Shown: positions 230 through 61,728 of the stretch, in pieces
Layout of the letters: each line of letters starts with the position of its first letter
Numbering within the stretch: the stretch's first letter is position 1
NCBI RefSeq assembly: GCF_013267595.1
Contig: NZ_CP054010.1
Coordinates: forward strand, 434,001-498,000
Source: Prevotella melaninogenica
GTDB lineage: Bacteria; Bacteroidota; Bacteroidia; Bacteroidales; Bacteroidaceae
Direction: 5' to 3'
DNA length: 64,000 nt
The notes under the pieces: generated by a model
What the model was told of the DNA's origin: nothing
Database searches by the model: none
The model's input: only the letters and a program-made list of their open reading frames with translations
Program-made: the position numbers and the translations under genes

Positions 230-350
230 TCAATAGGTTACAAAGCCACTTTGTAAAAGATGCTTAGTTAGACTTCAAAAGGGCGTTGGTTGGACCTCAA
301 AAGGGCATCTTTTGCAAGTCAATTAGGCGTCTTTTAGAAGCCCAAAAAGC
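230..350 (-). repeat. Family A 22-bp-periodic intergenic repeat, copy A1
   Basis: Read on the minus strand this matches five other copies in the window. AAAA blocks begin at 255, 277 and 299, exactly 22 bp apart, and GGC blocks continue the phase near 325. Each 22-bp unit contains AAAAGGGC or a variant. It lies beyond the 3' end of yebC. The unit length is not a multiple of three and no long frame crosses it, so it is not coding. Confidence 0.85.
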
Positions 351-5318: not shown

Positions 5319-5500
5319 TTGGCTTCTAAAAGACGCCAAATTGACTTGCAATAGGTGCCCTTTTGAGGTCAAACTAACGCCCTTTTGAAGTCCAATTAAG
5401 CACCTTTTACTTTACTGCTTTATAACTAATTGATTTCCTGTTGATTACAAAACTGGTTTTTGTATGTGGTTTTGCCGTTATTTATTGATGTCTTATTTGA
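5319..5500 (+). repeat. Family A 22-bp-periodic intergenic repeat, copy A2
   Basis: TTTT blocks begin at 5361, 5383 and 5405, exactly 22 bp apart, and a further one at 5317 keeps the phase. The tail (about 5415-5500) shares the TTTATAACTAATTGAT and GATTACAAA features of the other copies. It lies between two same-strand genes. Confidence 0.85.
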
Positions 5501-8439: not shown

Positions 8440-8846
8440 TTCTCACTCCAAACCTCCAAAGATGCTATTTTGTCCGTATTTTTCACATGTTGATTTTGTA
8501 AAGACCACCAAATGGCTTGCAAATAACGCCCTTTTGGCTTGCAAAAGATGCCCTTTTGAGGTCCAAGTAACGCCCTTTTAAAGTCCAATTAAGCACCTTT
8601 TAAAGCCTTGGTTTGTAACATTTTGATAACTAACAACTTACAAATGTATTAAAAGAACTCACATTTTATCCATTTCTCTACCTTTTCCTTGAATGTTTTG
8701 TAAATATATTTCTTGCCGAGAATATCCGCATTTACTAATTGAATGTGCGTAAATCTGACACAGAGCCACAGTGTAAACGGAAGTCTTATTTATGAACATG
8801 TAGTTCATTGAGTCATCGACAGTGTAGGGAGCAAAGGGACATATTA
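8440..8846 (+). repeat. Family A repeat, long form, copy A3, left of the IS982 element
   Basis: The periodic core is 8511-8601, with TTTT blocks at 8532, 8554, 8576 and 8598, all 22 bp apart. Similarity to the copy near 59.9 kb extends well beyond the core, from about 8440 through the TTTTGTAAATATA stretch near 8700 to the GTCATCGAC / TGTAGGGAGCAAAGG part near 8815-8840. The IS element interrupts this long repeat. A 60-codon minus-strand frame inside it is not a gene. Confidence 0.85.
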
Positions 8847-14218: not shown

Positions 14219-14337
14219 AGTTGTTTGCTTCTGTTAGTAAGCAGGTCAATAGGCTTTGTTTATAGCTTGATAGAGAAAGTATTAGATTCCTTGGAGTACC
14301 TTTTTCTACTTCTATAGACTCTATCTTATCAAATTAC

Positions 14338-14420
14338 TTTCATGAAAAGAAATATTTATTTACGTGAACAAAAAGATTTCTTTTCATGAAGAAAAATATT
14401 TTTCTTCATGAAAAGAAATC
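14338..14420. repeat. Family C palindromic array, copy C1
   Basis: CATG or ACGT centres occur at 14341, 14362, 14385 and 14407, about every 22 bp. Each sits in a TTTCATGAAA-like palindrome, with AAATATTT-like palindromes between them. It lies between convergent genes. The same plan recurs near 26.6 kb, and a simpler form at 61.7 kb. It could act as a bidirectional terminator. Confidence 0.8.
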
Positions 14421-18025: not shown

Positions 18026-18205
18026 ATAAAAATTACCATAACAATGGTAAGAAAAGAGCATATATATTTATGCGTGCATGAGAAAACTTTTTCTTCTCCT
18101 ATCAAACACGAGAACCTTTTTCTCTGAATTAAGTATAAGCAATCCTCTTTTAGCACGTTTCCAATCCCAGTATTGATGCTTTTTATATGCTGTCCGAATA
18201 CTGCG

Positions 18206-18276
18206 CACATCATGTGCGGAGGCTTAACACATATAGTGCGAAGGCTTAACACCATTGGTGCGGAGTACTAACACAT
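18206..18276. repeat. Family B alternating-palindrome array, copy B1
   Basis: Three 11-bp palindrome-like blocks (CACATCATGTG, CACATATAGTG, CACCATTGGTG) start at 18206, 18228 and 18250. Each is separated by an 11-bp spacer (CGGAGGCTTAA, CGAAGGCTTAA, CGGAGTACTAA), giving a strict 22-bp period. A partial fourth block follows. It lies between the nadB promoter and the rprXY terminator. Confidence 0.92.
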
Positions 18277-18369
18277 AATAAGGATTACTATAATTTATGA
18301 TATACTAACGAGGTTTTCATCTTTACTTTATACAAAATCCTTATCCTTCCACTTCCATATTGAACAAGA

Positions 18370-21265: not shown

Positions 21266-21331
21266 TTACCGATGTGTTGATGCCCAGCACGAGTGGTGAT
21301 GATGGTAAACACCAAGCGTGTTGAGTGCTTA
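21266..21331. repeat. Family B alternating-palindrome array, copy B2, in a leader
   Basis: Blocks TTACCGATGTG (21266), CACGAGTGGTG (21288) and CACCAAGCGTG (21310) start exactly 22 bp apart, with 11-bp spacers TTGATGCCCAG, ATGATGGTAAA and TTGAGTGCTTA. It is more degenerate than the others but keeps the register. It ends 25 bases before the receptor start codon, the only copy so close upstream of a gene. Confidence 0.8.
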
Positions 21332-23771: not shown

Positions 23772-23797
23772 CTATCTGCTACCTTTTTGATTAAAAC

Positions 23798-23855
23798 GGT
23801 CAACCTTTTTTGCAAAAAACGTCAACCCTTTCTGTAAAAACAGAAATGGTCGACC
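23798..23855. repeat. Family D palindromic array
   Basis: GGTCAACC (23798) and CGTCAACC (23820) start 22 bp apart, separated by the perfect 14-bp palindrome TTTTTTGCAAAAAA. A third block GGTCGACC (23848) follows after a 20-base hairpin-forming spacer. It lies between convergent genes and resembles families B and C in plan but not in sequence. The U-rich parts could also end transcripts from either side. Confidence 0.6.
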
Positions 23856-26499: not shown

Positions 26500-26553
26500 A
26501 AAGTTCCTTTTTAGAGTTTATTGGTTTCCGCTTCTTGCCGATTCGCGAATTAT

Positions 26554-26636
26554 TTTCATGAAGATAAATATTTATTTACGTGAAAAGAAATCTTTTTCTC
26601 CATGAAAAAAAAAAAATTATCTTCATGAAAATAATT
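26554..26636. repeat. Family C palindromic array, copy C2
   Basis: CATG or ACGT centres lie at 26557, 26578, 26601 and 26624 (spacings 21, 23, 23). The TTTCATGAA palindromes and AAATATTTATT spacers match copy C1 closely. A run of 12 A at 26605-26616 interrupts it. It lies between two minus-strand genes. Confidence 0.8.
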
Positions 26637-32145: not shown

Positions 32146-32228
32146 CTAAGCATCAACACCACATGTGTTAAGCATGAGCACCACATGTGCTAAGCGTGAG
32201 CACAATATGTGCGCAGCCTCAACCCCAC
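32146..32228. repeat. Family B alternating-palindrome array, copy B3 (best preserved)
   Basis: CACCACATGTG blocks start at 32157 and 32179 and CACAATATGTG at 32201, exactly 22 bp apart. The 11-bp spacers are CTAAGCATCAA, TTAAGCATGAG, CTAAGCGTGAG and CGCAGCCTCAA. It lies about 100 bases past the DUF5687 gene and 210 bases before the serS promoter. Confidence 0.93.
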
Positions 32229-36425: not shown

Positions 36426-36499
36426 AAACATTGGTGCTAAGCCTTAGCACCAATGGTGTTGTACGTAAGCACCATTCGTGCGAAGCATCAACACATGTG
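36426..36499. repeat. Family B alternating-palindrome array, copy B4
   Basis: Blocks AAACATTGGTG (36426), CACCAATGGTG (36448), CACCATTCGTG (36470) and CACATGTG (36492) start every 22 bp. Spacers are CTAAGCCTTAG, TTGTACGTAAG and CGAAGCATCAA. The first spacer is itself a near-perfect palindrome. It lies between convergent genes. A 77-codon frame over it is not a gene. Confidence 0.92.
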
Positions 36500-36605: not shown

Positions 36606-36642
36606 AAAACAGTCGGATTGAGTTCTTCAATCCGACTGTTTT
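36606..36642. terminator. Bidirectional terminator between the fusion gene and queC
   Basis: Perfect 16-bp arms (36606-36621 and 36627-36642) enclose a 5-base loop. The stem begins AAAA and ends TTTT, so both strands get a U tract. It suits the convergent genes on either side. Confidence 0.9.
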
Positions 36643-38919: not shown

Positions 38920-39140
38920 ATTTTAGTAGATGCTTAATCGGAGTTGAATTAACGCCTAATTGGCTTCTAAAAGATGCCCTTTTGAACCCTTACTAACGCC
39001 CTTTTGCACCCTTACTAAGCACCTTTTAAAACACACACTCACAACAACCTGATAACAAAACATTTACAAGAACGCTTAAAACGCATATTTTTTGAGGTTT
39101 TTCTTGCCTTATCTTCCATTGTTTTGTAAAGATAATTGAT
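38920..39140 (+). repeat. Family A 22-bp-periodic intergenic repeat, copy A4
   Basis: TTTT blocks at 38980, 39002 and 39024 are 22 bp apart. The tail shows CAACCTGATAACAAAACATTTACAA and TTTTGTAAAGATAATTG in the order seen in copies A3 and A6. Confidence 0.85.
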
Positions 39141-53770: not shown

Positions 53771-53869
53771 TGATATAAGACTTTTAGTTTATCACTCCAT
53801 ATTTCGAAAGAGCTCTTTTATTTGTAAACAAAAAATCATCATAATAAAATAAAGAGATGATTAATTGGA

Positions 53870-54070
53870 TTCGAAAAGACGCCCAATTGGCTTGCAAAAG
53901 ATGCCCTTTTAAGGTCTTACTAACGCCCTTTTGAAGTCCAATTAAGCACCTTTACAAATACACTCTTATAACTATCTGACTATATGATGATTACAAGAGT
54001 GACTAAAACTGTCATTTTGAGTATAAGAACAGCATCTCAAAGCGCAGATTTTTGTAAACAAATTTCCGCC
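53870..54070 (+). repeat. Family A 22-bp-periodic intergenic repeat, copy A5
   Basis: TTT(T) blocks begin at 53907, 53929 and 53951, 22 bp apart. The tail has TTATAACTATCTGA, GATTACAA and TTTTTGTAAACAAATTT in the order of the other copies. It lies beyond the 3' end of susD. Confidence 0.85.
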
Positions 54071-59849: not shown

Positions 59850-60245
59850 TATACTCCAAACCTCAAAACACCAAGCTTTGTCCTAATTTTTCACATATTG
59901 CTTTTATAAAGACCACAAAATGGCTTGCAATTAACGCCCTTTAGGCTTGCAAAAGGTGCCCTTTTGAGCTCTTACTAACGCCCTTTTGAAGTCCAATTAA
60001 CCACCTTTTAAAATCCTTATTTACAACTATCTGATAGTAAACAACTTACAAATGCACTAAAATAAATCACTTTTATGCCATTTTTCTACCTTTTCTTCGA
60101 ATATTTTGTCAATATATTTCCTTGCTTTTTTGAGATAAATCCCCCACGGAGATATGAGGCTAATAGTGCTTTTATTTAAAGACACGTAGCCCACAGAGGC
60201 ATCGATGGTGTAAGAAGTAAAGGAATATAACAACAATATTTATTG
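59850..60245 (+). repeat. Family A repeat, long form, copy A6, between sigma and anti-sigma genes
   Basis: TTTT blocks begin at 59940, 59962, 59984 and 60006, all 22 bp apart. Similarity to copy A3 runs from about 59855 (CAAACCTCAAA) to about 60235 (GGCATCGATGGTGTAAGAAG), nearly 390 bases, with the same order of short motifs. It separates two genes that usually adjoin. Confidence 0.85.
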
Positions 60246-61418: not shown

Positions 61419-61569
61419 GTTTCTGAGAGAGCTATCTTTTTGCCACGAAACGGCTAAATCAGTTTCTTAAATTTTGGAAAAGCTATAAAATGAGAAGAGA
61501 CTATATAACTCGTTTCTAACGACAACTCAACTCTACTTCAATAACAAATTAAAATGTTATTAGCGGTCA

Positions 61570-61624
61570 GCACCATTGGTGCTTACCATCCGCACGACAT
61601 GTGTTAGGCATCAACACATCGGTT
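61570..61624. repeat. Family B alternating-palindrome array, copy B5
   Basis: Blocks CACCATTGGTG (61570), CACGACATGTG (61592) and the partial CACATCGGTTG (61614) start every 22 bp. Spacers are CTTACCATCCG and TTAGGCATCAA. It lies between convergent genes. Confidence 0.88.
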
Positions 61625-61728
61625 GAAGATAAAGAGAAAGGGGCATTATGGTCGTTATAATGAAGATAGTAAGACGCTAATAGCTTTCCAAGATGAGAAA
61701 GATTTAATCAAACGACACTATAAAAAGA

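Follow-up and report, generated by a model that had tools for sequence, protein, structure and literature searches.

Mutually exclusive families of 22-bp tandem arrays in the intergenic DNA of Prevotella melaninogenica

Several kinds of short palindrome are known to be scattered through bacterial chromosomes. REP and BIME elements are short intergenic palindromes present in hundreds of copies, with a preference for convergent gaps and positions 3' of genes; the tandem operator arrays of cooperative repressors, such as the met boxes of MetJ and lambda OR, are dyad-symmetric sites in a fixed register where neighbouring dimers can touch, and they serve single promoters; matS, SBS and Noc sites are dispersed short palindromes that are not tied to gene function and are single sites of one sequence. 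The nearest described system to the arrays reported here is the BrickBuilt MITE of Porphyromonas gingivalis (Bacteroidales), which constitutes one family of 19 copies with a long leader, a tail and terminal inverted repeats (TIRs) (PMC4596501). As far as can be judged from its description, BrickBuilt resembles the Prevotella arrays in belonging to Bacteroidales, in being intergenic, in consisting of spacerless tandem repeats of about two helical turns that expand and contract by whole repeats, and in having conserved flanks outside the repeat block (PMC4596501). The two differ in that BrickBuilt has a 23-nt repeat, a single family and 19 copies, whereas here the repeat is 22 nt, there are several families and arrays number in the hundreds (PMC4596501). 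No description of arrays of this kind in Prevotella was found in a literature search of open-access sources.

The stretch of DNA analysed, referred to as the window, is 64,000 nucleotides of P. melaninogenica (contig NZ_CP054010.1, positions 434,001 to 498,000) and holds five arrays of what is termed family B. In all five, A blocks of the form CACnnnnnGTG alternate with B blocks of the form YKRAnnnTnnR, which confirms the single alternating design proposed in a preliminary description of this DNA; the design is also present at the locus that description began at 61570, although that locus starts one base later, with the true A block at 61571. Besides these the window contains six arrays of family A or A-like type, two of family C and one with a different unit, and these nine are listed without a strand:

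18195..18282, minus strand: family-B array of 8 blocks, three of them core A blocks, flanked by a fumarate-reductase-like FAD gene and a response-regulator gene
21266..21331, minus strand: family-B array with 2 core A blocks, in the divergent gap between a histidine kinase gene and an outer-membrane beta-barrel gene
32146..32228, plus strand: family-B array, B-A-B-A-B-A-B with 3 core A blocks; a DUF5687 gene lies on one side and the seryl-tRNA synthetase gene on the other
36426..36499, plus strand: family-B array that follows a 795-aa FAD/Fe-S oxidoreductase gene and precedes a hairpin terminator (36606-36642)
61560..61625, plus strand: family-B array, in the gap where a FecR gene and an RNA pseudouridylate synthase gene converge
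264..306: 22-bp array of family A (half-sites CTTTTG / CAAAAG)
5357..5408: 22-bp array of family A
8513..8605: 22-bp array of family A
14334..14419: 22-bp array of family C (TTTTCATGAAAA-type, AT-rich)
23793..23840: 22-bp array with unit AAAACGTCAACCCTTTCTGCAA, placed in no family
26550..26631: 22-bp array of family C
38976..39027: 22-bp array of family A
53863..53906: 22-bp array, family A-like (AATTGGATTCCAAAAGACGCCC)
59958..60016: 22-bp array of family A

The analysis covered approximately 2.05 Mb of the 3.35-Mb two-contig genome (the first 850 kb of contig 1 and the first 1.2 Mb of contig 2, 40 kb of the latter being masked) together with parts of four relatives; gene counts are approximate because they come from a simple ORF caller based on codon usage. 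Intergenic arrays of family B occur genome-wide, and their 22-bp register is held almost absolutely. In 850 kb of the window's contig, pairs of CAC.....GTG blocks are separated by 11 bp 59 times and by 33 bp 20 times, and no other gap between 2 and 79 bp occurs more than once; a block-profile scan returned 42 arrays scoring at least 38, a range that does not overlap that of shuffled sequence (maximum 17); and the pattern CAC.....GTG-N11-CAC.....GTG has 243 matches genome-wide compared with 0 for a control pattern. Neither freely varying spacing nor a frequency at the level of shuffled sequence, the outcomes that would have told against the constant spacing noted at the outset, was seen. Spacing is locked to 22-bp steps whilst the number of units differs among arrays, with three core A blocks in 80 of 120 oriented elements and two in 36. 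Both of the alternating palindromes that had been reported are there, but they are not separate facts, as tandem repetition of one dyad-symmetric 22-mer produces two dyads 11 bp apart and the 11+11 alternation is therefore not independent of the 22-bp period.

Family-B arrays have a polarity, the B blocks within any one array pointing the same way; 120 elements could be oriented, with margins that are mostly tens of bits and are optimistic because the orientation was fitted. Their flanks are weakly conserved from about -78 to +57, T-rich on the left and A-rich on the right. Bacteroidetes promoters are built from a -33/-7 pair of elements, and an apparent promoter in the left flank (TTG...TATATTG) was rejected, its spacing of ~15 bp being too short for such a pair. 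Dyad-symmetric half-sites in a fixed helical register, as in a tandem operator array, liken family B to the MetJ and lambda OR sites; the difference is that here there are about 100 family-B arrays in 2 Mb beside unrelated genes.

None of the 101 family-B arrays in ~2.05 Mb lies within a gene, so that family B is strictly intergenic, as is a BrickBuilt-type MITE, and intergenic in many copies, as are REP/BIME elements. The arrays are divided between tandem, convergent and divergent gaps as 52, 33 and 16, whereas the gaps of these types that measure 150 bp or more number 371, 152 and 133 (chi-square p 0.04). Polarity is unrelated to gene direction (22 the same, 30 opposite), and in 34 of the 52 tandem gaps the array is closer to the upstream 3' end. 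The neighbouring genes form no common family and include those for oxidoreductases, a response regulator, seryl-tRNA synthetase, phosphoglycerate kinase and FecR, amongst others. As to distribution along the chromosome, family B looks about twofold denser where GC skew switches sign, which is probably the terminus (C1 around 0-500 kb and C2 around 400-800 kb), and there are almost no family-B arrays at 500-625 kb and 700-780 kb of contig C1, regions that are possibly acquired islands.

It would seem improbable that the arrays are the operators of an ordinary transcription factor with a defined regulon. They are operator-like tandem palindromes under selection and some are found in divergent promoters, such as that at 21266; however, around 100 of them occur in 2.05 Mb beside unrelated housekeeping genes, which argues against a regulon, divergent gaps are depleted, and the exclusion between families described below would not be anticipated. 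The preference for 3' ends raises another reading, that of an RNA-level element in 3' untranslated regions whose hairpins terminate, stabilise or process transcripts, and it accords with the excess in convergent gaps, the shortage in divergent ones and the array at 36426, which sits between a stop codon and a terminator hairpin. That hairpin is a strong one, AAAACAGTCGGATTGAGTTCTTCAATCCGACTGTTTT, well conserved in relatives. Set against an RNA element are the random polarity with respect to gene direction, the presence of arrays in divergent gaps too and the lack of any Rfam match in the window. The halves of the A blocks show no covariation (z = -0.03) and those of the B blocks anti-covary (z = -4.3), the closest approach to pairing being that of the right half of an A block with the left half of the next (z 1.5-1.9), so that no pairing of any kind is supported by covariation; the folding energy of the RNA is likewise no better than that of position-wise resampled blocks (p 0.16 and 0.29). 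Family B thus displays neither the covariation nor the excess stability of a structured RNA or terminator, and a cruciform or hairpin reading was rejected on the same grounds. Half-sites that do not covary, in RNA that folds no better than resampled sequence, suggest a function that is probably at the level of DNA, and the missing pairing signal together with random polarity makes an RNA role improbable.

The same observations bear on REP/BIME-type palindromes spread by a RAYT (Y1 transposase), which have in common with family B their short intergenic palindromic repeats, many copies and a liking for convergent gaps and the 3' side. No Y1_Tnp match was found in the array-bearing genomes G000, G156, G170, G372, G334, G287, G404, G238, G148 and G403, whilst a Y1 transposase is present in two genomes with few arrays (G341 and G011). 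With no RAYT gene and no hairpin covariation, but with a fixed 22-bp tandem register and several unrelated families that exclude one another, family B is very improbable as a REP/BIME system.

Comparison with relatives shows that the arrays stay where they are and that their sequence is maintained. In G372, which is 95-96% identical, all 23 arrays that could be mapped by both flanks are present in place, and when the mapping is reversed one of 24 is missing, at a point where 3.5 kb differs. Of the arrays in the window, that at 18195..18282 recurs at this position in G372, G156 and G170 as well as in G403, one of the more distant species that keep some arrays; that at 21266..21331 is conserved in G372, G156 and G170; and that at 36426..36499 is conserved in G170, G372 and G156, its place in G148 holding a degenerate array in the same register (judged by eye) and the segment being missing from G334. 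In G334, which is 95% identical in one neighbour protein, the three places that were checked are without arrays and therefore single arrays can be lost. There is no gain or loss of family B at the 23 orthologous places, and recent transposition was rejected for this reason; place conservation argues against current mobility, and the suggestion that these are currently mobile elements is left unsupported.

Family-B arrays have diverged by 4.3%, compared with 10.1% for their flanks of 150 bp and 6.4% for gaps that contain no array, and 68 substitutions are seen in the arrays, roughly one third of the 198 that flank rates would predict. The CAC/GTG positions are substituted in 9 of 408 cases compared with 26 of 340 at positions 3-7 of the A block, and the substitutions that have occurred change the block profile by a mean of -0.25 bits as against -3.28 +/- 0.33 when simulated (0 of 2000 simulations); the test of motif preservation is conservative, since the profile was trained on G000. 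Selection thus falls on half-site bases, as in a tandem operator array. There are only two indels within family-B arrays and each is exactly 22 bp, such that repeat number changes by whole units in the manner of a BrickBuilt-type MITE. These observations support purifying selection on both the register and the motif of family B, upholding the earlier surmise that the register is selected. Among the 22-bp families, purifying selection is shown for family B only: divergence in family A is 4.5% compared with 7.6% in its flanks, and family C and the others offer too few sites.

Family B is one of several unrelated families that have a 22-bp period in common. Period 22 stands alone in this genome in the output of Tandem Repeats Finder (TRF; 140 rows, of which 138 are intergenic), and the autocorrelation of intergenic 6-mers peaks at lag 22 (894 against a median of 109, and 917 against 122), with harmonics; the intergenic peak persists when family B is removed and is not seen in the genic DNA of contig 1. 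Family A (264-306, 5357-5408, 8513-8605, 38976-39027 and 59958-60016) consists of long repeats of ~150-200 bp with a conserved GTAAC...TTGAT...TTACAAA motif in the right flank, its copies look far more similar to each other than do those of family B, and its half-sites CTTTTG and CAAAAG are separated by 5, 16 and 27 bp, spacings that keep to the same 11/22-bp register. Family C (14334-14419 and 26550-26631) has AT-rich TTTTCATGAAAA-type units, usually about four, between palindromic, TIR-like ends, CCGAATT...AATTCGG, that are clearest in G334, and it looks like a miniature element. The dyad symmetry of the TRF consensus units is strong in family C, moderate in B and not significant in A, hence it cannot be claimed for all families by that measure, whilst in family A it is visible through half-site spacing instead. 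At 382740-382796 of contig C1 there is also a perfect 22-bp tandem repeat, TAAGGCTTAATTGCATTCGAAT, of 2.6 copies with units that are 100% identical, which is probably a recent expansion.

The strongest new result is that the 22-bp families are mutually exclusive. Of the gaps between 250 and 3000 bp long, 467 in all, a family-B array is present in 93 and another 22-bp array in 118, yet only 3 contain both when 23.7 would be expected; with all families taken together there are 214 arrays in the 467 gaps, and 5 gaps have two or more as against 38 expected. If families are placed independently in gaps of matching type and length, the pairs lying less than 3 kb apart should number 10.9 for B-B, 8.2 for A-A and 38.0 for B-A, whereas 2, 2 and 7 respectively are seen (0 of 2000 simulations). 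The depletion extends to neighbouring gaps (29 compared with 54 expected), and there is a mild excess of pairs at 5-6 kb; all of these tests were designed once the data had been seen, and they concern one genome, G372 not being independent of it. Exclusion that is equal within and between families suggests that all arrays have a common job, for which one suffices across ~3 kb, although it could instead reflect insertion exclusion rather than equal function. The arrays also differ from matS, SBS and Noc sites: they are multi-unit, come in several sequences, occur only between genes and mostly lie at least 3 kb apart.

The main rival, which we regard as rather unlikely, is that the arrays are old and now immobile miniature elements, BrickBuilt-like MITEs with a body of 22-bp minisatellite, that owe their spread to a transposition system showing insertion exclusion and have been partly domesticated. 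Weak conserved flanks, homologous in some copies, a defined number of units and the ends of family C all favour such an origin, and the P. gingivalis element is likewise intergenic, with 23-nt direct repeats and whole-repeat changes (PMC4596501). Insertion immunity would yield self-exclusion. It would not be expected, however, to yield exclusion between families if these were unrelated mobile elements, and the stasis at the 23 mapped places and the strong motif-preserving selection fit it poorly. Of the leader and tail with TIRs and target duplications that mark the BrickBuilt type, family B has weak conserved flanks and no sharp ends, the TIR-like ends being those of family C; nor does the 22-bp period match a 23-nt direct repeat. 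The motif-preserving selection and the cross-family exclusion shown for the Prevotella arrays can be set against BrickBuilt by description.

Within the genus, double-unit matches number 243-274 in four genomes including this one, 9-144 in some others (not all of these being family B, as G161 for instance holds a simple repeat) and 0-1 in most. Outside the genus none of 246 other genomes of the order has a family-B array, as searched with a two-and-a-half-block pattern. A strict match in a genome collection that may omit near relatives retrieved one named Prevotella record, P. denticola NCTC13067. Other species of the genus have 22-bp arrays of their own: in G032, another Prevotella species, the unit is GTGRCGTTCAC-TTACTAGGAGA (contigs C3, C16, C36, C38, C39, C42, C60 and C79), and G238 has arrays with other units, CACAAAGTGTG-CAAGGCATCTG. 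A plasmid or phage origin was rejected as collections of plasmids and phages contain nothing similar, the sole match to a viral contig (L187) being GC-rich DNA that is rich in GTGCGCAC and was taken as chance.

The reading we favour, at somewhat short of even confidence, is that the 22-bp arrays are interchangeable, spaced, DNA-level boundary or architectural sites that are bound by a putative dimeric protein as tandem operators. Family B and the other 22-bp families would be functionally interchangeable intergenic sites, with roughly one every few kilobases. An array would consist of 2-4 quasi-palindromic 22-bp operators in tandem with the core GTG-YKRAnnnTYMR-CAC, neighbours being separated by the loose 5-bp centre of an A block. 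A unit of two helical turns would bring all sites to roughly one face of the DNA, which would suit cooperative binding by a dimeric sequence-specific protein, and each family may have its own reader among related proteins that differ in recognition sequence. The job of such a site is probably not the control of particular genes; it may hold, insulate or relax the DNA between transcription units. Both an operator for a cooperative protein and a nucleoid-organising site, the roles suggested previously, fit an element that is DNA-level, gene-independent and spaced; the preliminary interpretation is in this sense partly supported. Against the boundary or architectural reading, the flanks of family B are conserved, albeit weakly, and pairs of elements are 73-79% alike over 130-170 bp, some of them sharing duplicated gene ends, both of which point to dispersal as repeats, as do the TIR-like ends of family C.

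A more specific proposal, put forward tentatively and as something that may well prove wrong, is that these are Prevotella spacer elements in which it is the geometry that is selected, 22-bp tandem dyads kilobases apart, whilst the sequence is not fixed, so that unrelated families would be interchangeable, mutually exclusive within ~3 kb and would mark intergenic boundaries genome-wide. Even if the arrays were fossils of mobile elements, it would still need explaining why they exclude one another and why selection maintains them. If unrelated arrays are interchangeable, then what the chromosome needs every few kilobases would be the geometry of a bound array and not a sequence and, if true, this would be a new principle in how bacterial chromosomes or transcription units are organised, in a dominant genus of the mouth and gut.
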